NCBI GenBank assembly: GCA_023250955.1
Contig: JAHEZQ010000020.1
Span: 1 to 64,000 of the forward strand
Direction: 5' to 3'
From: Melioribacter sp.
Lineage (GTDB): Bacteria > Bacteroidota > Ignavibacteria > Ignavibacteriales > Melioribacteraceae
Length of the DNA stretch: 64,000 nucleotides
A program made the translations under genes and the position numbers. Positions 15,752-32,266 of this stretch are shown here, in pieces (the first letter of the stretch is position 1; every line of letters starts with the position of its first letter). The notes under the pieces are model-generated. The model saw only the letters and a list, made by a program, of their open reading frames with translations. It was not told the origin of the DNA and did not search any database.

Positions 15752-18700
15752 TTATTGATCAATGCTTATGCTAAATATCCTAAAATTTAATATCCTCTTG
15801 TCCGACGGTATTACGGCATTCTTGCTAACGGGAAGAAGTTTTATCACCAACGGTTTATTTGAAGTTTTTCTCAGCCGCGGAGGGATATCAATTATTAAGT
15901 TTTCTCTACTAACAACTGATTTTTTCGCAATGATATTATTATTAAAATATATTTTCACTTGTAAAGGACGTTTTCCACAACTTGGTCCAGGTTCAATATT
16001 CATTTTAACCTTCCGTGAAGTAGAATCCAGATTTGTTATTAAAATTTCAGCAAAATTTCTACCAACCCAGCGAAATGATTCATTATTATATGTTTCATAA
16101 GGAAACCATCCTTTACCGATTTGAATTTGCTCTAAATTATTTAATTCAATAATGTCATTCTTTTTAAGTTCAGGTTGTCTTAATGAAATATTGAACACAC
16201 GATAATTTAGAATTCTAGGATCGGAAATAATTTTTCTATTTTCTGTTTCCACTACAAATTTCAGAGTAATTTGTTTCTGAACATTGACAAAACTCTCTTT
16301 CGGCATTTGAATTTGCAATTTTTGTATTCCTTTTACAATCTCATTTATTAACATTTTGGTCTTATCAAAGATTTTTAAATTTAATGGTTTATCACCGCAC
16401 CCCGGTCCAGGTTCAAGGTTTACTTCTAAAATATTCCGTCTTATATCAATATTATTCAAGATAATTTCAGTCGGATTGGCACCTACCCACCGGTAAATTT
16501 TATTCTCGTGTTCCTCGGGTGGAAACCAGCCCATTCCTAAAGATACTAGGGCAGAATCTTTTTTATTTATTATGTCGTAAAATTCTTTCTCTTTTATAAA
16601 GAGTCTCAAAAAACGGTCTAGTCTTGAAGGGGCTTTATTATTCAGAACGCTCAGCAAATAATTTGAATAATGATCGACTTGGTCCGTTAGTTCCAATGCT
16701 TGAATCTGATAATTTAAGTAACGGTCATCTAGTGGTAACAAAGAGTGGCCAAATAAATTTTGTCCTTGTATAGATAACTCTAAAGTAGTATCAGATTTTT
16801 CTTTAATGTCGCCAATATTTAAATCAACCAAGGTTACTGGATTGTCAATATTAATTAATTTCTTTTTGCCATTACTGACATTTTCAATTTTTAGAACAAA
16901 TGGTGAAAATTCTATACTGGGACCTGGAGATACTAAGATTCTTAAATATTCTGCTCTAGATGATAGGTTAGAAATTTTAATTTGAAAATCACCTTTGGAA
17001 TAATTAGCTGCCATTGTAAAGGGTAGCTTTTCTTCAACTCTTTTGTTCGAATTTAGAATTCTGTCCTTCAAGGGTACTTTAACAAGCTGTATTTCCCATG
17101 GTCTCTGAAACACATTGAAAGAAACTGATTGCCATAATACTTTTTCGTTAACATGTGAATACGTTTGATAATTTAATTTTTCAAAATCTTTATTAAAAAT
17201 GCATCTGCAAAATATTTCTGCCTCCTCTGGATTATCAACAACGTTAATCCCTTGTTCTCTAAGAAATTGCTTCAAGTATAAATAGAGATGTTCTGATGAC
17301 GGTATATCAATATAGATTTTATTGCCGTTTAATTTTGCTTCATTAACTATTCCGGAAAAATTCGGGATCTCTGGAAGTTCATTGATTTTTATTTTAGTCC
17401 CGGCTTTCACACTTATTATCTTGAAAAATTCATTGCTCCAAATTTCTTTTGAATCTTTTGTATCAGAGATGATTGTTCTCCCCCCGTTAATCCTGATAAA
17501 CCAATCAGCATTAAGTGCAGACCTTTGCAGTTTAATGCCTTTAGATTTCAGAGACTCGTCAAGGAGTATATATGTATCCTTGTCTGTGATATCAATAAAA
17601 GTTCGAGAAAGATTTCCGCTTTTTTCTAAAAATTCAGTAAGGCTGTTCAATGATGATAAAAGAATACCACGCTTTAAGCTGAGCTCGTTTCCTATCCAGT
17701 TAATATTAATTTTTCCAGAATGCTCTGGTTCATACATTGTAACGGTTGTAATCTGGTTATCTGAGGGAGGTTCAAATAATTTTAATAACCCGTTATTAAA
17801 TAATTCCCGACTCTTAGAAACTGAATTTTGATATACGTTGCCATAATTCTCCAATTGAATTATGTATTTAGCATCTTTACGAGAAGTGAGAGGAGAATAA
17901 CCGTGTTCTATAAAAATATATCTGAATACTAAGTCGACAAGAAAGTTGGGTATATCAATATATGATTGAGAGATTTCCTGTTTGTTAGTATGTGAGAAAA
18001 AATCTTCAATCCGCGGCTTATCATTGTAAGGCCTTGTATAATAATCATAATCAATGGAAATGTTCCAAATAATATTCAAACTACCTATGAGAACTAATAA
18101 ACCAATAAAAGTATTTTTAATTACTTTCTTTTTAGTTGATCTAAAAAAATCTGATAACCACAAGAACAGTATCACCACAACAATAAAATAATTAACATAT
18201 AAAAATTTGTAAAAGTAGTATGGACTGCCCCAAAAGTAGCGCATCATTATAAAGAAAGGGATATAAAAAACAGTATAGAGAAATAAAAAATACCGGTTTA
18301 CATTTAGCCTGTTCTTGATCCCAGCTATAAATGCTGAAACGGTAAGCGATCCTGCTATGATCAATGCCACGGTATTTATAATATCATTTGAAATAAATAT
18401 TGGAAGTGCAGATAAAATACCGGTTGAACCTGAAGGATAAATACCCCAAAAAATCATAATCATTTCCTTAAACAAAGAAATTTTCCAGCTGACATTCGTT
18501 CTCAATATTGCGTTGATTCTTCTGGGCTCAAAATAATTGTAAACAATAATTGTAAATAAGACTGAAATAATTAAAACAATTATTCCAATACTGATAACTC
18601 TCAACCAGTTAAATCTATTTTTAAGCTGCTGAGCATTTTCCTGATTATTAAAACCAAAAAAAAATGATATTTTTTTTGTAAAACCTAATGGTTGAAAAAT

Positions 18701-19606
18701 CCTTTTATGAATTATTAATACAGCTGCGGGAATCAGTAAAAAAAAGATAGGACCGGGATAAGTGATATGAATGGAATATAGTAATAAGGCCGCCAGTATT
18801 AACCAATATGAATTAACTTCTTTTCTTGACCATAATATTATTATACCGATAAAAACAGGAGCCATCGATCCATACATTAGTGAACCAATATGCCCATTTA
18901 AAAAAGTCGTTAAATAAAAATTTGCACAAACACTCCAGAAACTAGCTAATAATGCAGTTTTCCCATTACCGTGAAATACAGTTATAACCAACCAATAAAT
19001 TCCAATCGCTGTTAGAAACAAATTGAGTATTGCTTGAAATAAAAATCCGTCTACTCCGCTAGCTTTTAACAAAATACGTGTAAAAGCTTGACTGCTGTAT
19101 TGCAGTCTGATCCATCCACTAAAATCTTCTGGCATGTAGCGAAGCGGAGTATTATCAAGATATGATTGCCCCCCATTTATTCCATCAAAAAAATCTTCAT
19201 TGCCGGAATGAAGATAGTTCTTTTCTCCTATCGCGACATATTGCCAAGAACTTAGAATAAAGATCAGAACTAAAATCAATAAAATGTACAAATCTTTCAG
19301 TGGCATGCTGAACTTTTCGATAAAAACCGAGAGAGGACGTTCTCTTCTTGAAAGAAGGGAAAAATAAATTAGATTAATTGCAGTTAACAAAATTAGAGTT
19401 ATAAAAAAACTGATTAAGGAATTTTCATTTATAGAATAAAATAATTGGAACAAAAACTGTGACGCAGCATAGCCAACAATTGCTGTAATCAAATAATATC
19501 TTGAAAGTTTTTCTTTATTATCAATTAATTGAAATAATCCGACCACGCCCAATCCCGCATAGAAAACAAACAAAAGCATAAAACATACTTTAATGGGTAT
19601 AATCAT
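15752..19606 (-). CDS. Giant polytopic membrane protein with C-terminal tandem beta-domains (possible GT-C-type glycosyltransferase)
   Basis: 1284 residues. About 12-14 hydrophobic segments fill residues 1-515, followed by a soluble, presumably periplasmic part. The membrane half resembles GT-C or polymerase-like polysaccharide proteins in layout, but no catalytic motif is certain. At the C-terminus two 140-residue repeats align without gaps: GMGWFPPEE/GKGWFPYET at ~1025/1165, RWVG at ~1039/1179, EPGPGCG/EPGPSCG at ~1065/1205 and RILNYR/RILNFR at ~1131/1271. A diverged third copy lies at ~890-972 (SPGPS, DDRYLNYQ). The GW..E..RW pattern occurs in sugar-related accessory domains. ATG overlaps the upstream stop (TAATG). 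Function unknown. Confidence 0.75.
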   Translation of the reverse strand: MIIPIKVCFMLLFVFYAGLGVVGLFQLIDNKEKLSRYYLITAIVGYAASQFLFQLFYSINENSLISFFITLILLTAINLIYFSLLSRRERPLSVFIEKFSMPLKDLYILLILVLIFILSSWQYVAIGEKNYLHSGNEDFFDGINGGQSYLDNTPLRYMPEDFSGWIRLQYSSQAFTRILLKASGVDGFLFQAILNLFLTAIGIYWLVITVFHGNGKTALLASFWSVCANFYLTTFLNGHIGSLMYGSMAPVFIGIIILWSRKEVNSYWLILAALLLYSIHITYPGPIFFLLIPAAVLIIHKRIFQPLGFTKKISFFFGFNNQENAQQLKNRFNWLRVISIGIIVLIISVLFTIIVYNYFEPRRINAILRTNVSWKISLFKEMIMIFWGIYPSGSTGILSALPIFISNDIINTVALIIAGSLTVSAFIAGIKNRLNVNRYFLFLYTVFYIPFFIMMRYFWGSPYYFYKFLYVNYFIVVVILFLWLSDFFRSTKKKVIKNTFIGLLVLIGSLNIIWNISIDYDYYTRPYNDKPRIEDFFSHTNKQEISQSYIDIPNFLVDLVFRYIFIEHGYSPLTSRKDAKYIIQLENYGNVYQNSVSKSRELFNNGLLKLFEPPSDNQITTVTMYEPEHSGKININWIGNELSLKRGILLSSLNSLTEFLEKSGNLSRTFIDITDKDTYILLDESLKSKGIKLQRSALNADWFIRINGGRTIISDTKDSKEIWSNEFFKIISVKAGTKIKINELPEIPNFSGIVNEAKLNGNKIYIDIPSSEHLYLYLKQFLREQGINVVDNPEEAEIFCRCIFNKDFEKLNYQTYSHVNEKVLWQSVSFNVFQRPWEIQLVKVPLKDRILNSNKRVEEKLPFTMAANYSKGDFQIKISNLSSRAEYLRILVSPGPSIEFSPFVLKIENVSNGKKKLINIDNPVTLVDLNIGDIKEKSDTTLELSIQGQNLFGHSLLPLDDRYLNYQIQALELTDQVDHYSNYLLSVLNNKAPSRLDRFLRLFIKEKEFYDIINKKDSALVSLGMGWFPPEEHENKIYRWVGANPTEIILNNIDIRRNILEVNLEPGPGCGDKPLNLKIFDKTKMLINEIVKGIQKLQIQMPKESFVNVQKQITLKFVVETENRKIISDPRILNYRVFNISLRQPELKKNDIIELNNLEQIQIGKGWFPYETYNNESFRWVGRNFAEILITNLDSTSRKVKMNIEPGPSCGKRPLQVKIYFNNNIIAKKSVVSRENLIIDIPPRLRKTSNKPLVIKLLPVSKNAVIPSDKRILNFRIFSISIDQ

Positions 19607-22923: not shown

Positions 22924-23637
22924 CTATTTAATTTTTCTGAATGAATTTGCCCTTAAAACAACTCCTAATGCGGTAATAATTGTTTTAAAAGGATAATAAA
23001 AAGATCTCCAAAAATTAATACTTGATTTCCCCGATTGTCTCGGTTCAAATTTACAGGGAATCTCTTTTATTCTAACACCACAGAAAAAGCCATGAATGTT
23101 TGATTCAACACCGGCAAAATTTGATGGGTATTCTTTTGAAAAAACAGAAAGAGCTTTTCTATTCCAAGCTCTAAAACCTGAAGTTATGTCGGTTAATTTT
23201 TGTCTTATAATTATACTTGTCAACCAAGCAGAGAAGAGCATTCCGATTCTTCTAATTAGAGGAGTTTTATAACCCTTATCTAAAATATAACGAGACCCAA
23301 TTACCATGTCGGCTTCGTCATTTAGAATTGGTTGTATCAAAGTATTTATTTCACTGGCAAGGTGTTGTCCATCGCCATCAAATTGTATAGCAATATCATA
23401 ATTATTTTCAACGGCAAATTTCATTCCTGTTTGCACTGCACCACCGATACCTAAATTAATCGGATGAGAGACATAAAAAACTTTCTCCGATTTGGCAACT
23501 TCAACAGTATCATCTGAAGATGCATCTGAAACAACAATTATATCAAACTTTAGAACTTTCTTTTTTAAATCTGGTAAAATTTTCTTTAGATTTTTACTTT
23601 CATTAAAGGCAGGAATTATTATTAGTATTTTATTCAT
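22924..23637 (-). CDS. GT2 glycosyltransferase, DPM1-like (second copy)
   Basis: A 237-residue GT-A enzyme. Motifs: ILIIIPAFNESKNLKKILPD, DIIVVSDASSDDTVEVAKSE, NLGIGGAVQTGMKFAVENNY, AIQFDGDGQHLASEI (metal site), LTDITSGFRAWNRKALSVF. No membrane domain. Likely makes a polyprenyl-phosphate sugar used by other enzymes here. Paired with DUF2304 downstream. Compared with the 13004-13726 protein the metal motif is DGD instead of DAD. Confidence 0.87.
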   Translation of the reverse strand: MNKILIIIPAFNESKNLKKILPDLKKKVLKFDIIVVSDASSDDTVEVAKSEKVFYVSHPINLGIGGAVQTGMKFAVENNYDIAIQFDGDGQHLASEINTLIQPILNDEADMVIGSRYILDKGYKTPLIRRIGMLFSAWLTSIIIRQKLTDITSGFRAWNRKALSVFSKEYPSNFAGVESNIHGFFCGVRIKEIPCKFEPRQSGKSSINFWRSFYYPFKTIITALGVVLRANSFRKIK

Positions 23638-23665: not shown

Positions 23666-24373
23666 TTATTTTATATGAAAATGCATGATATATAAAGAAT
23701 TGGAGATTTGAAACCCGCAACTCTCATATAGTCTCATCGAAGGGACATTAGCAATTTGTGTTCCAACCCTTAAGATATCATATTTATCTGTGCAATCATT
23801 AATCCAATAATCAACCAAGGATTTTCCTAGGCCCTTTCCTTGAAAATTTTTATCAATGCTAATTAAATCAATAACTCCAACCGATTTATTTTCATTTTTT
23901 GATTCAATCTCAGCCAAAAAACCTGCATGTTCATTTTTATATTTAATAACTAGTAGTCTTACTCCGCGTTTTTTATCAATATAATTCTTAATCCACATTT
24001 TTTTAATTCTATCTGCCAACGAATTAGAAATATTTTGATCTAAATGAAATCTTGAATAAACAAAACTACTTTCTGCAATTTTTAATATCGAAGTTTCATC
24101 TTCTTTTGAAAACTCCGTTACAATTGAATGAATGTTCTGTTCCTTCTTTACATATATTTTGTTTATTTCAAAAGTTACATTTACATCGATAACTCTAAAA
24201 TTCATAGAGCTTAATAAATCAACTAAATCAACTCTTTCTGTTGGAATCTTAGTCCAGATAAAAGATTTTGTTTTGGGTAGTTCAAAAACACTATCAATTT
24301 CATTTAAATTATTAAGTCTATATACATCATAATTAAATATATCTGAAAGCCAAATATCTTTGATAAGTTTCAT
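23666..24373 (-). CDS. GNAT N-acetyltransferase, WecD-like
   Basis: A 235-residue protein with a C-terminal GNAT fold: VGVIDLISIDKNFQGKGLGK (acetyl-CoA loop Q-x-x-G-x-G) and VGTQIANVPSMRLYESCGFQ. The layout follows WecD/RffC, which acetylates dTDP-4-amino-4,6-dideoxygalactose. A DegT aminotransferase lies two genes upstream, which would supply the amino group. The specific sugar is inference. Confidence 0.75.
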   Translation of the reverse strand: MKLIKDIWLSDIFNYDVYRLNNLNEIDSVFELPKTKSFIWTKIPTERVDLVDLLSSMNFRVIDVNVTFEINKIYVKKEQNIHSIVTEFSKEDETSILKIAESSFVYSRFHLDQNISNSLADRIKKMWIKNYIDKKRGVRLLVIKYKNEHAGFLAEIESKNENKSVGVIDLISIDKNFQGKGLGKSLVDYWINDCTDKYDILRVGTQIANVPSMRLYESCGFQISNSLYIMHFHIK

Positions 24374-24406
24374 TTACAAATAGATACCTAATAAGTGATC
24401 TAAAAT

Positions 24407-25396
24407 TTAATCGGGCATTTTGAAGAAATTATTATTCAAGTACCACTCAATGTACTCCGCTCCTCCACTCTCAAGAGAAATACTTGATTTATATCCGAGG
24501 AGTTTATTTGCTCTTGTAATATCCAGTGTCCCGCGCTTTGGTTTTAATCTGTCGAGAGGTTTATATTCAATTTTTACATTGGGAAAATATTTTTGAACAA
24601 TTTGTGCAAGCTCATTGATAGTTCGTCCACTGCCGTATGTAAGATTAAACGTTTGGTTGATAGCTTCAGTCTTCGATAACATTAGGATAATACCGTTCAC
24701 AACATCTATAACGTTAGTAAAATCAAGACGCTCGGAACCATCGCCTTCAACGTAAAGCGGTTTCCCCTGTAAAGCGTTCTCGATAAATATTTGTGTTATT
24801 CTTCTATTAATACATCGCGGACCATATAATGCCGAGGGACGAACTATTGTATAAGGAATTCCAAATACATGATTGTAAGCTTTGATCAATAATTCGCTAG
24901 ATAATTTTGCTGCACCATAAATACCGATTGGATTAGTTGAGCTTTCTTCAGTTACAGTATCTTCGACAAAATTACCGTAGACCATACTGGACGAAAAGAA
25001 TAAAAATTGTTCAGGTTTTTTTTCTAGTGTACGTAATATTTCCAGAATATTTTTTGTAGCTGTCAAATTGTTATCAAACCCTTCCGAGGGATTATCATTG
25101 CATAATACAGCTGATGGTATAGCAGCTAAGTGAACAATTTTTGAAGGCTCGTAAAATTCAATTATTTTTTTTATGTCATTAAAATCTTTCGTATCACCTC
25201 TTTTAATTTCATAACCGGTTCCTTTAACCATATTTATTCTTTCATCAACAAATTTCTGATAAACCGGATTGGTAATTTTATGATCAAAATTATCATATAT
25301 AAGTGCATCGGCATTTAACTTACTTAAGGCAATTGCAAAGTGATGCCCAATAAAACCAAGACCGCCTGTAATTAGTACTTTTCCTTGTACTGACAT
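24407..25396 (-). CDS. NAD-dependent nucleotide-sugar epimerase/dehydratase (extended SDR)
   Basis: A 329-residue SDR enzyme. KVLITGGLGFIGHHFAIAL is the NAD-binding motif. SSSMVYGNF with the catalytic Ser and YGAAKLSSELLIKAY with Tyr-Lys form the active site. IVRPSALYGPR and DFTNVIDVVNGIILML are substrate-domain marks. RBS AAAGAGG precedes the ATG. Likely makes the keto or epimerised sugar for the DegT enzyme next to it. Substrate unknown. Confidence 0.88.
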   Translation of the reverse strand: MSVQGKVLITGGLGFIGHHFAIALSKLNADALIYDNFDHKITNPVYQKFVDERINMVKGTGYEIKRGDTKDFNDIKKIIEFYEPSKIVHLAAIPSAVLCNDNPSEGFDNNLTATKNILEILRTLEKKPEQFLFFSSSMVYGNFVEDTVTEESSTNPIGIYGAAKLSSELLIKAYNHVFGIPYTIVRPSALYGPRCINRRITQIFIENALQGKPLYVEGDGSERLDFTNVIDVVNGIILMLSKTEAINQTFNLTYGSGRTINELAQIVQKYFPNVKIEYKPLDRLKPKRGTLDITRANKLLGYKSSISLESGGAEYIEWYLNNNFFKMPD

Positions 25397-25421
25397 TAAA
25401 ACCTCTTTAATGAATTAAAAA

Positions 25422-26567
25422 CTATTTAGAATTTTCAGAGATAATTTGTGACATTAATTCTAGATCTTCTTTCAAAACACGTGGCCCAATTGGAAGAGCA
25501 ATTGTTGTGTCTGCTATTAGTTCTGCATTTACCAAATCCCCTTTCTTGTAACCATATTTCTGCCGATAATAAGTCATCAAGTGAAGTGGTGTAGCATAAT
25601 AAATGCTTGTTCCAATCCCCTGCTCGGTAAATTTCTTTGCTAAATCATTTCTGCTGGTTGGATATTCCTTTTCCAATTTCAGTTGAAAAAAGAAATGGGT
25701 ATTAACAATTTCATTTGATTCTTCAGTGTAACTAATTCCGGGTATGTTTTTGATTAGAGATGTTAAATACTTCGCGTTTTCAATCCTGGAATTATTCATA
25801 GCAGGAAGTTTCTTCATCTGAATTATTCCAATGACCGCTTCAACTTCTGTCATGCGGTAATTATATCCCAAATACGGTACATCATAATACCCGGCAATTT
25901 TTCTTTCTTGAACCGCTTTATCAATTCCGAATCCTCTTTGTTTTGAAGCTAACATTGCAATTCGCTGATCATTAGTCGTCAGCATTCCCCCTTCACATGT
26001 TGTAATCTGTTTGATTGGATAGAAAGAATAACACCCGGTATTGCCAATGTTCCCGGTTTTTTTCCCTTTATAAACTGAACCTAATGAATGTGCACAGTCT
26101 TCAACTATAAAAAGTCCCTTGCTTTCACAAAGATTACGGATTTCATCCATCTCACATGGCTGGCCCGCAAAGTGCACAACATTCACAACTTTTGTATTCT
26201 TAGTTAGTTTCGCTTTAATTGTCTCTGCGGTAATAGTTCCGCTAGCAATATCAACATCGGCAAATACAGGTTTTGCTCCTACAAACTCTGCAGAGTGAGC
26301 AGTTGCAACATGAGTTTGAGCAGGAACTATTACCTCATCTCCCGTACCAACTCCAAGTGCCATCAATGACAAATGAAGAGCAGCTGTGCAGGAGGAAACT
26401 GCAACTGCATATTTAGTCCCAATATATTCTGAAAACACTTTTTCAAATTCTTCGGTTTTGGGTCCATGAGTTAACCATCCGCTTTGAAGAACCTTAATAA
26501 CATCTTGAATTTCTTCTTCACCAATAATTGGTTCGCCAAATTTTATTGTCCTTTTCAAACTATCCAT
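25422..26567 (-). CDS. DegT/DnrJ/EryC1-family PLP sugar aminotransferase
   Basis: A 381-residue aminotransferase installing an amino group on a 4-keto nucleotide sugar. The PLP lysine lies in CYSFYPIKQITTCEGGMLTT. Other marks are SSCTAALHLSLMALGVGTGD, EVIVPAQTHVATAHSAEFVG, VEDCAHSLGSVYKGKKTG and YNYRMTEVEAVIGIIQMKK. Together with the epimerase and the WecD-like GNAT it forms a plausible amino-deoxysugar pathway within four genes. Confidence 0.92.
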   Translation of the reverse strand: MDSLKRTIKFGEPIIGEEEIQDVIKVLQSGWLTHGPKTEEFEKVFSEYIGTKYAVAVSSCTAALHLSLMALGVGTGDEVIVPAQTHVATAHSAEFVGAKPVFADVDIASGTITAETIKAKLTKNTKVVNVVHFAGQPCEMDEIRNLCESKGLFIVEDCAHSLGSVYKGKKTGNIGNTGCYSFYPIKQITTCEGGMLTTNDQRIAMLASKQRGFGIDKAVQERKIAGYYDVPYLGYNYRMTEVEAVIGIIQMKKLPAMNNSRIENAKYLTSLIKNIPGISYTEESNEIVNTHFFFQLKLEKEYPTSRNDLAKKFTEQGIGTSIYYATPLHLMTYYRQKYGYKKGDLVNAELIADTTIALPIGPRVLKEDLELMSQIISENSK

Positions 26568-26595: not shown

Positions 26596-28950
26596 TTAGT
26601 AATTAGTTAATTTTGCTCTATATATCTTATGATAAATTTCCGACTTCAAAAGATACTTAAAAATATTTTTATTTATTTCCGGGTATGTAATGCTTCTTCC
26701 AATATGTTTTTCTCTTAGTTTTGTCATTTCTTGCTCACCCAAAGAAGATATCTGAGCAGAAGTTTTTTGCTGAGGGTGAACTCTAAATGCCGCAAGAAAA
26801 CGTGGAAGTCTTACAATCTTTGCATCCATTTCTTGAAATCTTAAAAGCAAATCCCAATCTAATGCAAAATCAAATTCATCATTAAGACACCCTCCGATTT
26901 TTTCCCAAATTTCACGCCGCCAGAATAAAGTTTCTTGAGGAATAAAATCTGCCCATACTAATACTTTTTTATCATGTCTTGGTAATACCCAACGACCGAT
27001 TTCCTTATCACAATTATTAATTAAAATGCGGTGACCATATATTACATCAATATTAGGGTTCTTGTTAAAATAATTTACGACATAATTAAAGGTTCCAGGC
27101 AGATAAATATCGTCAGAATTTATCCATGCCAATATATCACCTGAAGCAAGTTTTAATCCTTTGTTAATCGCATCAGCCTGACCTTTATCACGCTCGGAGT
27201 TTGAACTTTTTAAATATTTTTTATACCTATCAAGTATTTCTGTGCTGCCGTCAGTTGAACCTCCATCCTGAATGATATACTCAAGATCAGGATAATTTTG
27301 GTCGAGAATGCTCTTAATAGTGCGTTCTAAAAATTCTGCCTGATTATAGGAGGGAGTTACAATTGACAATCGAAGAGGGGTACTAATTAATTTTGTATTT
27401 AAATACTTTTGCGGAATTATTAATTCTGTCGGCTCATAATGGTTTAATTGACCCAGTCTTGGTGTAAAAAAATCTAATTTATTTTTTTCAGTTTTTGTTT
27501 CATTCTTATCTGGTTCTTTAATTTCCATATCCTTCTGTTCAGGCTCTTGAATTGTTAAATTCTCTAGCTCCGGTTCCTCTTCAACTATTACATTATTCTC
27601 TGTTAAACCTGATCTCTTTTTATAGATATAATCCCAAAGCTTGGGAAAATGAAATTGAAATAAAGTTACTAGTCCCCATATCGGAGTTGAAAGACGTTTT
27701 TTAAGAATACTCAAACTTTCTGATAAGAAGACAATTTCCTTTTCTTTTCCTACTAAATCTTCCGTTAATGAAACAATTTCTCCTTCTTTTTCAACAAGAT
27801 CCGCCGAGAGAATATTTATCTTTTCATCTTTTTCTTTGAGTTCACTTAATAACGAATCAATTTCTATTTGCTTACTGACCAAATCATCCGAGAGAGAATT
27901 TATCTTTTCATCTTTTTCTTTTAGTTCAATATATAATGCATCGATTTCTTTTTCTTTACCTACCAGGTCATCCGAAAGTGAGTCTATCTTTTCGTTTTTA
28001 ACTTTTATTTCATCTAATAAATCATCTAATTCTTTTTCCTTACCTACCAAATCATCCGACAACGAATCTATCTTACCATTTTTATCTTTTATTTCATCGA
28101 ATAAATCATCTAATTCTTTTTCCTTATCTACCAACTCTTTAGAAAGTAATGTTATACTATCTTCTTTATCATGAATTGTCTTATCCTTTATAACTAGGTC
28201 TCCCGAAAGCTTAAAAATCGTTTCATCTTTGTTGACCAAATCATCGGACAACACTATTATTTTCTCATCTTTCTCTTGTAATTGCTTCAGCATATCTTTT
28301 TGCTGTTTCAGAAGTGTATCATAATCTCTGGACTTATCAAGAACAGTTAACCAGTTAATGGAATTTTCATAGGCATAATCTTTTATTGTTTCGCGGATTG
28401 ATTTTGGATAAAAAATAATCGTATCGTTTAATATTATTGTCTCATGTACAACACTCAATTTTCTGAACAATGTAATGATCGAATTAAAGTCAGGCCATTG
28501 AGTAATTTCATGAGGTGAAGGCGGGGGGGAAATGAACAGTCGTGCATCATCAATGATTATTATACTTTTTTTGTTAAGAGACTTTATTGATACTAATTCG
28601 TCCAATAGAGGGCACTGAGATTTTTTCCCTGCTGTTTTGTCCGCAACGCACCAGTGAGCATCGAGCCAATAGAGAACTGATTTCTCTTTCAGAACAGGAT
28701 GAATCTTATTTAAAAACTTCTCCGAACTATTAAGATACAAATGAATATCATTATTCGATTGGAATTTGCTTTTAACTTTGTTGTAATATTCTTCCGCAAG
28801 TTCAACCGAATGAATCTCGCTGAAAAGGTCTTTGACATATTCAATTGTTTCACCTTCGAATGTACCGGTTTCAACAAAAATATCTAAAGGGAGAACTTCT
28901 TTAAGTTTCTTAACTAAATTTAGATCTAACGAAAAATTAATTGCACCCAT
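26596..28950 (-). CDS. Methyltransferase-like / long coiled-coil / GT2 glycosyltransferase fusion
   Basis: A 784-residue multidomain protein. Residues 1-190 resemble a SAM-dependent methyltransferase-type Rossmann domain (FVETGTFEGETIEYVKDLF, IHSVELAEEYYNKV, WLDAHWCV, CPLLDEL, IIIIDDARLF). Residues ~206-420 are an almost unbroken coiled coil containing 28-residue repeats. An acidic linker follows (~455-490). Residues 520-730 are a GT2 domain (LSIVTPSYNQAEFLERTIKS, IIQDGGSTDGSTEILDRYK, DILAWINSDDIYLPGTFNYV, FALDWDLLLRF). It lies 4 nt downstream of wzt, in the order wzm-wzt-fusion. A chain-terminating or length-setting enzyme is a reasonable hypothesis by comparison with WbdD. Methyl transfer itself is unproven. 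Confidence 0.85.
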   Translation of the reverse strand: MGAINFSLDLNLVKKLKEVLPLDIFVETGTFEGETIEYVKDLFSEIHSVELAEEYYNKVKSKFQSNNDIHLYLNSSEKFLNKIHPVLKEKSVLYWLDAHWCVADKTAGKKSQCPLLDELVSIKSLNKKSIIIIDDARLFISPPPSPHEITQWPDFNSIITLFRKLSVVHETIILNDTIIFYPKSIRETIKDYAYENSINWLTVLDKSRDYDTLLKQQKDMLKQLQEKDEKIIVLSDDLVNKDETIFKLSGDLVIKDKTIHDKEDSITLLSKELVDKEKELDDLFDEIKDKNGKIDSLSDDLVGKEKELDDLLDEIKVKNEKIDSLSDDLVGKEKEIDALYIELKEKDEKINSLSDDLVSKQIEIDSLLSELKEKDEKINILSADLVEKEGEIVSLTEDLVGKEKEIVFLSESLSILKKRLSTPIWGLVTLFQFHFPKLWDYIYKKRSGLTENNVIVEEEPELENLTIQEPEQKDMEIKEPDKNETKTEKNKLDFFTPRLGQLNHYEPTELIIPQKYLNTKLISTPLRLSIVTPSYNQAEFLERTIKSILDQNYPDLEYIIQDGGSTDGSTEILDRYKKYLKSSNSERDKGQADAINKGLKLASGDILAWINSDDIYLPGTFNYVVNYFNKNPNIDVIYGHRILINNCDKEIGRWVLPRHDKKVLVWADFIPQETLFWRREIWEKIGGCLNDEFDFALDWDLLLRFQEMDAKIVRLPRFLAAFRVHPQQKTSAQISSLGEQEMTKLREKHIGRSITYPEINKNIFKYLLKSEIYHKIYRAKLTNY
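27715..28134 (-). repeat. 84-nt tandem repeat encoding 28-residue coiled-coil units
   Basis: The motif LV(G/D/S/E)KxxE recurs at residues 273, 301, 329, 357 and 385 of the fusion protein, exactly 28 residues (84 nt, four heptads) apart. Shorter half-units at 238, 252 and 399 are spaced by 14 or 21. DNA copies are similar enough to allow slippage or recombination that would add or remove whole heptads without breaking frame. Confidence 0.85.
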
Positions 28951-28954
28951 AGGT

Positions 28955-30343
28955 TTAATTCTGATTTGTTATTGACATTTGGAAATTACTTTCTAGATTA
29001 ACATAACCATGAAACGGTAAGATCATACCTTCGTTATTAGGACTAATCAGAATTCGTCCTGCTTGAGACGCGCGGAATATCCATTTAATAAAATGGTCTC
29101 TTGTATCAAAATCTACCTTATTAATTTCATCAAGGTTTTCACTTTTAACAGCACCGAACGCTATCGTAAATGTATATTCACCAGGAGAAATATCAAGTAT
29201 AAATTCTTGCTTAAAACGAATTATTGAACCTGCCTTTATTTTTGGAAAAGCATTTTTATTGGATGTTGGATATTGTAATGTATCCTTCCCATGAACGGGA
29301 ATATTTAACCTGTTGATTAATACAACAGCACCAACAGGAATATCTATGTCGTTGTAAATATTGACTTCATAAAAAAAGATAACTTTTTCACCAACTTTGA
29401 AATTTGATGTGGCTTTCTTTTTTGTATTACAAACTGCCAGCTTTGTTAGTCTGGCAACTTTTTGGTCTCCATGCACTTCCAGAGAATTTGTGTCGATTAA
29501 AAATTCATAATCCGGCCAGTCATCAATTTTATCAGAAATTTTTTCTTCCAAGGATAAATTTATTGTGTTGTCATCCTCTATTACATTCTCCGAAGGAGTT
29601 AATGGATAGTTATCTGCTAAACTATAATACTTTTGAATTGCGGTATGCGGATTTCCTTTAAATAACAGCTCACCATTCGATAAAACAATAGTATCATTAC
29701 TATATTTTTCAATTAATTGCATATCGTGAGAAACTATTATTAAAGAAGTACCTCTACTCAATAATTTTTCAATTCGTGAATGACATTTTTGCTGGAAAAA
29801 AATATCGCCGACACTTAAGACTTCATCAACAATAAGAATATCCGGTTCCAGACTCGTTTGAACGCTGAAAGCCAATCTAACAAACATTCCGCTTGAATAA
29901 GTTTTTACAGGCTGATCAATATATTCTCCAATGTCTGCAAATCGAATGATCTCTTCAACCTTTTTTTCAATTTGATTTTTACTAAACCCAAGTATAGTAC
30001 CATAAAAATAAATATTCTGTCGGCCTGTGAATTCCGGATTAAAACCGGTGCCTAATTCCAATAATGCAGAAACACTTCCATTAACAAAAATATTTCCCGA
30101 ACTCGGGGGAATAACATGTGCAATAATTTTCAGAAGTGTGGATTTGCCCATACCATTCTTACCAATAACTCCTAAACACTTTCCTTTATTTAATTCAAAA
30201 CTAATATTCTTCAGCGCATAAAATTCTTTGTGATATTTTTTACCAAAAGGGTTTAGCGCTTCTTTTAATCGATCTTTTGAAGAGCCATATAGTCTATAAT
30301 ACTTTGATACATCTTCCAATTTTACAACGAGATTATGATTCAT
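28955..30343 (-). CDS. wzt: ABC transporter ATP-binding protein for polysaccharide export with C-terminal carbohydrate-binding domain
   Basis: A 462-residue Wzt. Walker A is GKNGMGKST at residues 61-69, the signature is YSSGMFVRLAFSV, and Walker B is PDILIVDEVLSVGD followed by SHDM. Residues ~265-455 form an extra beta-rich domain (VEKVIFFYEVNIYN-like region, GAVVLINRLNIPVHGKDTLQ, FILDISPGEYTFTIAFGAVK). This matches the Wzt C-terminal domain that recognises the capped end of an O-polysaccharide in O8/O9a-type systems. Such domains usually accompany a chain-terminating enzyme. The ATG overlaps the wzm stop (TGATG). Confidence 0.93.
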   Translation of the reverse strand: MNHNLVVKLEDVSKYYRLYGSSKDRLKEALNPFGKKYHKEFYALKNISFELNKGKCLGVIGKNGMGKSTLLKIIAHVIPPSSGNIFVNGSVSALLELGTGFNPEFTGRQNIYFYGTILGFSKNQIEKKVEEIIRFADIGEYIDQPVKTYSSGMFVRLAFSVQTSLEPDILIVDEVLSVGDIFFQQKCHSRIEKLLSRGTSLIIVSHDMQLIEKYSNDTIVLSNGELLFKGNPHTAIQKYYSLADNYPLTPSENVIEDDNTINLSLEEKISDKIDDWPDYEFLIDTNSLEVHGDQKVARLTKLAVCNTKKKATSNFKVGEKVIFFYEVNIYNDIDIPVGAVVLINRLNIPVHGKDTLQYPTSNKNAFPKIKAGSIIRFKQEFILDISPGEYTFTIAFGAVKSENLDEINKVDFDTRDHFIKWIFRASQAGRILISPNNEGMILPFHGYVNLESNFQMSITNQN

Positions 30344-31167
30344 CAGATAACCTCAGCAAAATGTGGACGAAGCCTTCTAAAAACAACTGCACCAATGACA
30401 ACAATTACAATTACAGTTACCCAGAAATACAAAGTTTCAAGAGGTTTAGTCCAAAATGGAATTCCATATATAAATGTGTCTCTGTATCCTGAAATAATAT
30501 AGTAAACCGGATTAAGTTTTATTATCCAATGAAACTTCTCGGGTATCATTGAAATACTCCAAAAAATTGGAGTTAGCCAAAACCCAAATTGGATTAACAC
30601 TGTTACAATATTATTTATATCTTTCACAAAAATGCTAGTTGAAGAGGTTATCCAACCAAGACCAATCAGGAGGAAAAACATTGATATTATATAATATATG
30701 ATTTGAATTGTATAAAGACTCGGATAGATTCCATAAAAACATCCTAATAATATTGTGAGAAAAATGAAGACCAAATGATTAATAAACGCACTAAATATTT
30801 TTACAAGAGGTAAAATGCCAAGACTAAAATCAACTTTCTTGATAAGAAAACTAAATTGTTGTACTACATTAGTTGATGCAACAAACACTTCTGAAAAGTA
30901 TAACCATGGAATCATTCCGATAATTAGCCAAAATGAATGTGGTGCGTTTTCGATTTTTTGAAGTTTAAAACCTAAACTTAAAACACCCCAAATAATTAGA
31001 ATAAATAAAAGTGGTTGAATATAGGTCCAAAAAAATCCTAAGTAAGAACCTTTATACTGTGCCTGGAAATCTCGTTTCGTCAATTCGTAAATAATCGATT
31101 TCTTAAAATAGATTTCCTTGGTGAAGCTAAAGAATAATTTTATATAGCTCAAATGTTTTGGAAACAT
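30343..31167 (-). CDS. wzm: ABC-2 type polysaccharide export permease
   Basis: A 274-residue inner-membrane permease with about six membrane segments and the family N-terminus YELTKRDFQAQYKGSYLGFF followed by WTYIQPLLFILIIWG. Near the end comes LNPVYYIISGYRDTFIYG. ATG at 31167 is preferred over TTG two codons earlier. It pairs with wzt through a TGATG overlap and exports a lipid-linked glycan across the inner membrane. Confidence 0.92.
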   Translation of the reverse strand: MFPKHLSYIKLFFSFTKEIYFKKSIIYELTKRDFQAQYKGSYLGFFWTYIQPLLFILIIWGVLSLGFKLQKIENAPHSFWLIIGMIPWLYFSEVFVASTNVVQQFSFLIKKVDFSLGILPLVKIFSAFINHLVFIFLTILLGCFYGIYPSLYTIQIIYYIISMFFLLIGLGWITSSTSIFVKDINNIVTVLIQFGFWLTPIFWSISMIPEKFHWIIKLNPVYYIISGYRDTFIYGIPFWTKPLETLYFWVTVIVIVVIGAVVFRRLRPHFAEVI

Positions 31168-31216
31168 ACCCAATTAGAATATTTCTGACAAAATGAAATT
31201 GCTAGGGATTTTATTT

Positions 31217-32266
31217 TCATCGAATATCATGAATCAAATCAAGAATCATTTTAGCGCTTCTTTGCCAATCAAATTTCTGTTTAAGTAATTCGATGCTCTC
31301 TTTATTGTTCTTCTTATTGCGGTTTAGAATAAGTTCTATTTTAGAAGTAATGCTATCAATATCGTCCGGATTGCAATATTCCGCTAAGTCACCACAAACT
31401 TCGGGCAAACTGCTTGTATTAGAAACCAGCGTAGGGCATCCGCAAGAAATTGCTTCTAATGGCGGAAAACCAAATCCTTCATAATACGAAAGATACGCAA
31501 AAAGCCTCGCATTTTTATATAAACCGACTAATTCTTCGTCAGAAATATATCCTGTCAATATTATATTCTTATTTTGGGTAAAATCATAATTAACCGTGTT
31601 AAATACTCTTTGGTTTGACTTACCAACAACTATCAATTTAATGTTTGGGTCATTTAATCTGAGAAAAGCGGTAACAAGATTTAAGATGTTTTTTCTCGGT
31701 TCAATTGAAGATACGGTTAAAATGTATTTTCCATACTTGTTCTCAAAATTTTTCTCTTCATACTGCGAAATATATGAAGGAATGGCTCCAGGAATTACCT
31801 CAATCATTTCAGACGGTATTTTAAAATATTTAATTACTTCTTGCTTTGTAAAATTGCTTACAGTAATAATTTTTTTTGAAGCTTTTATTGATTGACTAAC
31901 AAGCAGTTTAAATGAAAATGCCGCCCTCTTAGTATACCAATTTGGTTCATGTAAAAATGCTAAATCATGAATGACAAGTATCTGGTTCTTATAAAAAATT
32001 GGAGCAGTGTTTGTCAAGTTTATAAGTAATGGATTCCTCTTCTTTTTCAGATAGAAAGGTAATGTCAATTGTTCCCACAAATACTCTTTGAATGGTGTAA
32101 TGTATTTGATGTTTAGTCCAGAGACAAAATTTTTTTCCCCATTGTAATTGGGGACTAAGAACAAAATTGAAGGATCAATTTTTTTTAGTGCATAGGAAAT
32201 CTCTGTAGCGTATCTTTCAACACCTGTAATTATTTTTGTTAGAAATTTAGCATTTACATAAATCAT
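31217..32266 (-). CDS. GT4 glycosyltransferase (mannosyltransferase-like)
   Basis: A 349-residue GT-B enzyme of the WbaZ/mannosyltransferase type. Marks: TGVERYATEISYALKKI (acceptor loop), LVIHDLAFLHEPNWYT, KIITVSNFTKQEVIKYF, ILTVSSIEPRKNILNLVTAF and AYLSYYEGFGFPPLEAISCG (E-x7-E). It is the first gene of the minus-strand cluster and diverges from the TMTC-like gene across 52 nt. Donor is likely GDP-mannose or GDP-fucose judging from the neighbouring gmd/fcl, an inference. Confidence 0.87.
   Translation of the reverse strand: MIYVNAKFLTKIITGVERYATEISYALKKIDPSILFLVPNYNGEKNFVSGLNIKYITPFKEYLWEQLTLPFYLKKKRNPLLINLTNTAPIFYKNQILVIHDLAFLHEPNWYTKRAAFSFKLLVSQSIKASKKIITVSNFTKQEVIKYFKIPSEMIEVIPGAIPSYISQYEEKNFENKYGKYILTVSSIEPRKNILNLVTAFLRLNDPNIKLIVVGKSNQRVFNTVNYDFTQNKNIILTGYISDEELVGLYKNARLFAYLSYYEGFGFPPLEAISCGCPTLVSNTSSLPEVCGDLAEYCNPDDIDSITSKIELILNRNKKNNKESIELLKQKFDWQRSAKMILDLIHDIR

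Follow-up and report, generated by a model that had tools for sequence, protein, structure and literature searches.

The 64,000 nt window analysed here (positions 1 to 64,000 of contig JAHEZQ010000020.1, GenBank assembly GCA_023250955.1, from a Melioribacter sp.) contains, directly after the ABC transporter genes wzm and wzt, a gene for a 784 aa protein that joins a class I methyltransferase-type domain, a long coiled coil and a glycosyltransferase family 2 (GT2) domain in one polypeptide. With a probability of approximately 0.62, we consider this fusion to act in an ABC-transporter-dependent pathway for a surface polysaccharide, as terminator, ruler and glycosyltransferase scaffold in one. 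Close to the membrane, its C-terminal GT2 domain would serve as a polymerase adding sugars to a lipid-linked chain, and the coiled coil would keep the N-terminal domain approximately 30 nm away. A free chain end that reached the N-terminal domain would be O-methylated, using bound S-adenosylmethionine (SAM), and growth would stop. The C-terminal domain of Wzt would then read the cap and admit the chain for export by Wzm. The coil would in this way control glycan length. The features that favour this reading are the wzm-wzt-fusion gene order, the methyltransferase fold, a coil in one heptad register, insertions and deletions (indels) of whole heptads among relatives, and the linkage of such fusions to wzm and wzt.

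Domain architecture of the fusion protein

The stop codon of wzm and the start codon of wzt share a TGATG overlap, and a 4 nt gap separates wzt from the fusion gene (Table 1), in agreement with a first-pass annotation that was made from the sequence alone and had proposed a glycan-length ruler here. The reading frame is intact in its own assembly, and three congeners have full-length homologues with the same domain layout (784, 722 and 770 aa), so that an assembly artefact can be discounted as the source of the 784 aa fusion. Among named genomes, the nearest is a Melioribacter metagenome-assembled genome, with 93 % identity across fusion residues 1-200.

Table 1. Positions in the window of wzm, wzt, the fusion gene and their parts
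Feature	Position	Strand	Details
wzm, ABC-2 permease	30343..31173	-	TTG start at 31173 or in-frame ATG at 31167; PF01061, 2.6e-18
wzt, 462 aa	28955..30343	-	ABC_tran, 7.2e-20; nucleotide-binding domain ~1-245, C-terminal domain ~291-462
Wzt C-terminal carbohydrate-binding-type domain, residues 291-462	28958..29473	-	Wzt_C
784 aa fusion protein	26596..28950	-	Methyltransferase fold, coiled coil and GT2
Class I SAM-methyltransferase-type domain, candidate capping enzyme, residues 1-200	28351..28950	-	Predicted fold and motifs
Coiled coil, residues ~206-422	27685..28335	-	~32 nm if fully helical; COILS-type score, one register
84 bp tandem repeat in coil DNA	27804..28134	-	3.9 copies, 81 % matches; unit of 28 residues, four heptads
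Aromatic, weakly amphipathic conserved segment, residues 423-450	27601..27684	-	Possible membrane-surface helix
PRLG lead-in and GT2 glycosyltransferase, residues 497-784	26599..27462	-	NSDD and ALDWD motifs; PF00535

The N-terminus had been described as methyltransferase-like, and a fold search bears this out. An AlphaFold model of residues 1-200, built from 16 family members (pLDDT, the model's confidence score, 85.6), has the class I methyltransferase fold, with strands and helices alternating as in those enzymes. The top VIA-align match of the model was the O-methyltransferase 4oa8 (Z 14.6, rmsd 3.4, 167 aligned residues), followed by TrmR (Z 14.3) and COMT (Z 14.1), and Foldseek alone ranks TrmR first. 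The best 50 VIA-align rows have Z values of 12.6-14.6 over 143-172 aligned residues, and Z was ≥8 for 973 of 1000 chains. O-methyltransferases of the catechol/caffeoyl-CoA type top this list, tied within about 1 Z with tRNA- and N-methyltransferases. Nine residues (E27, G29, T30, F31, E50, D97, H99, D134 and D135) are invariant in all 16 rows of the family alignment. D97, D134 and D135 may be equivalent to the metal ligands of catechol O-methyltransferase.

The methyltransferase assignment rests on this fold and on motifs, because residues 1-205 reach no family cut-off. The whole protein matched no methyltransferase in Pfam at E 0.1 and reached no NCBIfam cut-off (25 of 30 families listed), and no Pfam or NCBIfam cut-off was reached by residues 1-205 alone or by two distant members. 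The best sub-threshold Pfam match of residues 1-205 was a DNA methylase (E 0.032). Those of the distant members were Methyltransf_24, along nearly the whole profile (L024, 0.024), and Erm (L030, 0.018), and sub-threshold matches also include families that are not methyltransferases, e.g. lincosamide nucleotidyltransferase (window, 0.013). Against the PDB, phmmer with residues 1-200 found a single match (E 0.87), and the 16-row family profile gave 13 weak matches at E≤10, with an rRNA methyltransferase first (0.008) and several that are not methyltransferases. In such weak profile matches (best E 0.008), the VETGTFEG stretch aligns to the motif-I region of known methyltransferases.

Between the window and its congener L019, dN/dS (the ratio of non-synonymous to synonymous substitution rates) is lowest in the methyltransferase part (0.03), compared to 0.07 for GT2, 0.10 for the coil and 0.40 for the linker, and residues 1-200 are under strong purifying selection. 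The natural reading is that the N-terminal domain would be a working methyltransferase. In the same pair, dS is much higher in the methyltransferase part (1.20) than in the GT2 part (0.42), which hints at recombination inside the gene.

The first-pass estimate of a coil of ~215 residues, or ~32 nm, also holds. A COILS-type calculation predicted an extended coiled coil for 201 of 215 residues (mean 34 and maximum 98 in 200 shuffles), and a single heptad register runs through 195 of 196 windows of the calculation, or approximately 200 residues. Leu or Ile occupies heptad position a in 29 of 31 cases. The coil protein sequence is 48 % identical to itself when shifted by 28 residues, the length encoded by one unit of the 84 bp repeat. 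The aligned coil regions of the four congeners are 216, 216, 153 and 202 residues long. Relative to the window, the coil of G007 is shorter by 35+14+14 residues and that of G001 by 7+7, all multiples of seven; the placement of gaps within repeats is uncertain, and the net differences of 63 and 14 residues are firmer. In the same alignment, the methyltransferase domain is gap-free and the GT2 domain has a gap of at most one residue. The four congeners, with enzyme domains 75-94 % identical and aligned coils of 153-216 residues, offer a ready-made series of lengths for the ruler idea, and through the 84 bp repeat glycan length could evolve in a simple way. Elsewhere, a single locus (L023:9332-12397) encodes two methyltransferase-coil paralogues with coils of ~31 and ~252 residues, with an APS kinase gene between them and a sulfotransferase gene before them.

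After the coil, residues 421-450 share 67-97 % identity among congeners, and the best hydrophobic moment of the aromatic segment stands at the 93rd percentile of the local background. As it is no higher, the segment is only weakly suggested to be an amphipathic membrane helix. A simple hydropathy scan found no transmembrane segment in the fusion.

The C-terminal GT2 domain, also predicted at first pass, is matched by Glycos_transf_2 (PF00535) over residues 529-650 (5.6e-28). A tree of 24 GT2 domains places all 12 fused ones together in a single group of 13 (support 93/91, not starred), where the lone intruder belongs to an FkbM-GT2 fusion that lies two genes from the fusion in L154. The label 'fused' needs two changes on this tree and four on the methyltransferase tree, in which 9 of 16 inner branches are open. 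With that tree so poorly resolved, a single fusion followed by losses and repeated fusion are both possible. The FkbM-GT2 fusion itself (L154:6096-8051) suggests that the GT2 module is common to two modifying proteins.

Wzt carries the expected C-terminal domain. Pfam Wzt_C matches residues 295-405 above cut-off (6.1e-13), and the extension past the nucleotide-binding domain, given as ~190 residues at first pass, is nearer 215. The best PDB sequence match of Wzt is 8dku (5.7e-69), listed as an ABC transporter and presumably a Wzm-Wzt structure.

Occurrence and linkage to wzm and wzt

A census of the N-terminal domain family recorded 25 genes in 24 genomes. Twelve are fused to GT2, ten are unfused and one is cut by a contig end. 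The remaining two, in the cyanobacterial sample, lie within large proteins and are joined there to FkbM and further domains; L152:5920-10389 (1489 aa) and L153:8884-15759 (2292 aa), from that sample, combine the methyltransferase-type domain with FkbM, GT11 and other glycosyltransferase domains. The samples were drawn from the phyla of five distant members and the order of one member, and with the 16-row profile at E≤1e-40, counting the centre genome, the family was found in 2/297, 2/288, 3/292, 1/300, 2/247 and 4/199 genomes. In the sample of the window's own phylum, 13 of 296 genomes match at E≤1e-10. The full domain is present at high score only in the window's genome and congener G003, and the other 11 matches are weaker and mostly partial. 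Family genes occur in 4 of 12 same-genus genomes, some of which are incomplete, and in genomes whose titles name Acidobacteria, Opitutales, Desulfobacteraceae and Polynucleobacter. Such a rare and patchy family is what one would expect if glycan loci move horizontally. With residues 1-205 as query, plasmid and phage collections yielded one plasmid record (26 % identity) and seven phage records with partial matches. More distant homologues of the N-terminal domain, 27-43 % identical, are present in viral contigs (L065-L144, the best 80 of 100) and in some Synechococcus phages.

Linkage could be judged in 18 of the 24 genomes, as the contigs of L020, L021, L022, L025, L028 and L029 are too short; L026 has only ~2.4 kb of upstream sequence. 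Of these 18 loci, 10 have both wzm and wzt no more than 10 kb away, namely 8 of 9 with a GT2 fusion and 2 of 9 without (Fisher p 0.015; 0.041 if the four congeners are treated as one). In L152 and L153, only the window's proteins served as probes for Wzm and Wzt, and these missed the divergent Wzm in L151. In the window itself, the fusion is linked both to Wzm and to a Wzt that bears Wzt_C. Chain terminators typically go with a Wzt bearing a carbohydrate-binding module (PMC11127046).

Among the 10 family loci with wzt, Wzt_C was above cut-off in six and just below it in one (L023), a long extension in L154 was unmatched at 1e-5, and the domain is absent in L030 and L151. On the first-pass question of whether such fusions always lie beside a Wzt with a C-terminal domain, these loci show that such a Wzt is usual and not universal, as 2 of the 10 Wzt proteins are short.

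Known systems and alternative readings

Several characterised proteins resemble the fusion; the comparisons are with the systems as described in the papers cited. ORF6 of Klebsiella pneumoniae O7, encoded in a cluster with wzm and wzt, is a single polypeptide that runs, like the fusion, from an N-terminal methyltransferase-type domain through a central coil to C-terminal GT2, and it terminates the chain and adds repeat-unit sugars (PMC11231755). However, ORF6 is described as having a kinase-like domain and a predicted carbohydrate-binding module (CBM) before the coil, two GT2 modules and SAM-binding glycines at positions 91 and 93 (PMC11231755). The fusion, set apart by that description, has its motif at residues 27-33, a coil from ~residue 206, one GT2 and no kinase, and the methyltransferase fold and the coil are too close together for a kinase-like or CBM domain to fit in. 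In WbbB of K. pneumoniae O12, one polypeptide also combines terminator and polymerase modules with a coil, but its terminator is a β-Kdo glycosyltransferase and not a methyltransferase (PMC11231755).

WsaE of Geobacillus stearothermophilus, the gene for which overlaps wzm and wzt, combines an N-terminal methyltransferase with two glycosyltransferase domains, where the fusion has one, and its methylation is thought to cap the S-layer glycan; no coil is mentioned in the description consulted (PMC2943079). The fusion shares with WbdD of Escherichia coli O9a/O8 a methyltransferase-type N-terminus, which in WbdD is the capping domain, a long coil, and an association with Wzm and a carbohydrate-binding Wzt, but WbdD, as described, recruits the polymerase WbdA, carries no glycosyltransferase and in its O9a form has a kinase (PMC3482155). 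No kinase match was found in the fusion with Pfam, and the coil begins at ~206, after the methyltransferase fold. The 13 PDB sequences that the 16-row family profile picks up at E≤10 do not include WbdD, and neither do the best 50 VIA-align rows, though the latter excludes nothing. As WbdD is missing from the profile matches and there is no kinase, assembly of this ruler independently of WbdD is plausible; the shared methyltransferase fold leaves remote common descent possible.

The first-pass annotation was therefore right about the kind of design. However, the glycosyltransferase at the far end, which it offered as a new alternative, is already known, as ORF6, WbbB and WsaE join terminator and polymerase modules. 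The points of difference are the family of the candidate capping enzyme, the lack of kinase and CBM, the single GT2, a repeat-built coil of variable length and a variable partner gene; of these, the enzyme family and the partner gene are new, and the fusion is set apart from ORF6 and WsaE by their descriptions. We recognised no description of the fusion family in the open-licence literature searched. The characterised rulers considered here come from enterobacteria and Geobacillus; the fusion family would take the design to Melioribacter and the other genomes named above, and its candidate capping enzyme is unmatched in sequence to those of the known rulers.

Some observations weigh against the fusion being a terminator, ruler and scaffold. 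The substrate cannot be read from the fold, as rows within ~1 Z are tied and include tRNA- and N-methyltransferases. Heptad position d alternates between Leu (15) and Lys (14), with one Met, and Lys at every second d position makes the stability of the coil uncertain. Some GT2-fused members are nearly without a coil (none detected in L024, 47 residues in G640), and methylation by WsaE in vitro was independent of chain length (PMC2943079). Two related loci (L030, L151) have a short Wzt without the C-terminal domain. Finally, the Wzt C-terminal domain is 41-85 % identical among congeners (77-92 % for the nucleotide-binding domain). Leaving aside the pair of window and L019, its identity is only 41-52 %, against 77-92 % for the methyltransferase. 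A simple lock and key between cap and Wzt would not predict such rapid divergence. The absence of FkbM was considered as the cause of the different Wzt C-terminal domain in the window and L019 and was rejected, as the FkbM-bearing G001 and G007 differ equally from one another (43 %). In G007, an 87-residue open reading frame directly after wzt (L036:7701-7961) resembles the C-terminal half of the Wzt C-terminal domain, is 33-37 % identical to all four of these domains and is possibly a scar of domain exchange.

If the methyltransferase instead decorated internal repeats or every repeat, the coil would be only a tether and chain length would be set elsewhere. We regard this as rather unlikely. 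The predicted coil totals (window 203 residues; L035 240, 33 of them in the linker; G007 118; G001 162; L024 and G640 as above) range from none to 240 among GT2-fused relatives, so that a long ruler is not essential to the architecture, and the WsaE result is in keeping with this. However, a tether would not need a register that runs unbroken for ~200 residues under purifying selection, every aligned coil indel preserves that register, and the characterised coil proteins of ABC-transporter glycan pathways carry the terminator at the distal end (PMC11231755).

It is also unlikely that an upstream partner, whether FkbM, sulfotransferase or hexapeptide transferase, makes the cap and leaves the N-terminal domain with a secondary or binding role. 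Such partners are frequent. FkbM methyltransferase is the nearest upstream gene in 8 of 24 genomes, is fused in two and is elsewhere in the locus in one; a sulfotransferase without FkbM is present in three (with the APS kinase in L023) and a hexapeptide transferase alone in one. RfbT of Vibrio cholerae has the terminal sugar as its target, and the FkbM protein of L037 also matches RfbT, below cut-off. The O antigen is the molecule that RfbT methylates (PMC9929944). However, no second modifying gene was found in nine of the 24, including the window and L019, in both of which wzt directly adjoins the fusion; seven of these nine were examined by pairwise probes only, on contigs some of which are short. 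A genome-wide search at E≤0.001 for FkbM and sulfotransferase genes, which did not extend to hexapeptide transferases, found none in the window's genome, yet the N-terminal domain encoded there is strongly constrained and 90 % and 77 % identical to those of the FkbM-bearing G007 and G001. A chemical partner therefore frequently accompanies the N-terminal domain without being needed in every case.

Very unlikely is an adaptor or early glycosyltransferase role, in which GT2 acts once near the lipid end and a separate cluster polymerase is recruited to the coil protein: the cluster does hold further GT4-type and GT2 genes, but the fused GT2 domains group together, they are joined to methyltransferase and coil in 12 of 25 family genes, and the fused glycosyltransferases of Klebsiella O7 and O12 are polymerase modules (PMC11231755).

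For the fusion as terminator, ruler and scaffold, a tentative elaboration is a swappable two-part cap. The conserved core step of the ruler would be complemented by an exchangeable upstream gene, for an FkbM methyltransferase, a sulfotransferase or a hexapeptide acyltransferase, that sets the final chemistry, to be read by the fast-evolving, exchangeable Wzt C-terminal domain, and glycan length might evolve as whole-heptad units, encoded by the slippage-prone 84 bp repeat, are gained and lost.

Surrounding genes of the polysaccharide locus

The cluster in the window is a polysaccharide locus. Downstream (3′) of the fusion, in the same direction, are genes for a DegT-type aminotransferase, an NAD-dependent epimerase/dehydratase, a WecD-like acetyltransferase, a GT2 and a DUF2304 protein, as well as a FemAB-like protein, an LPG_synthase_TM protein, a polysaccharide deacetylase, a 1284-residue protein and then three further glycosyltransferases. 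Apart from the fusion, the glycosyltransferase genes of the cluster include GT4-type ones at 31217 and 13758 and GT2 ones at 22924, 14873 and 13004. The 1284-residue protein (15752-19606) has ~11 hydrophobic segments and matches no Pfam family, and a relative of it adjoins the fusion in L154.

L154, from the phylum sample of an acidobacterial member, shares wzm, wzt, the fusion, this relative, GT2, FemAB, the LPG-type protein and the deacetylase with the window. FemAB, the LPG-type protein and the deacetylase are in the window's order, the large protein is elsewhere, and a GT2 and two FkbM genes are extra. Among the congeners, the aminotransferase and acetyltransferase genes of the window (23666-26567) and L019 are unmatched at the corresponding position in G001 and G007; in these two, the fusion is followed by a different gene of epimerase type. 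In view of these differing genes, the glycan probably differs among the congeners.

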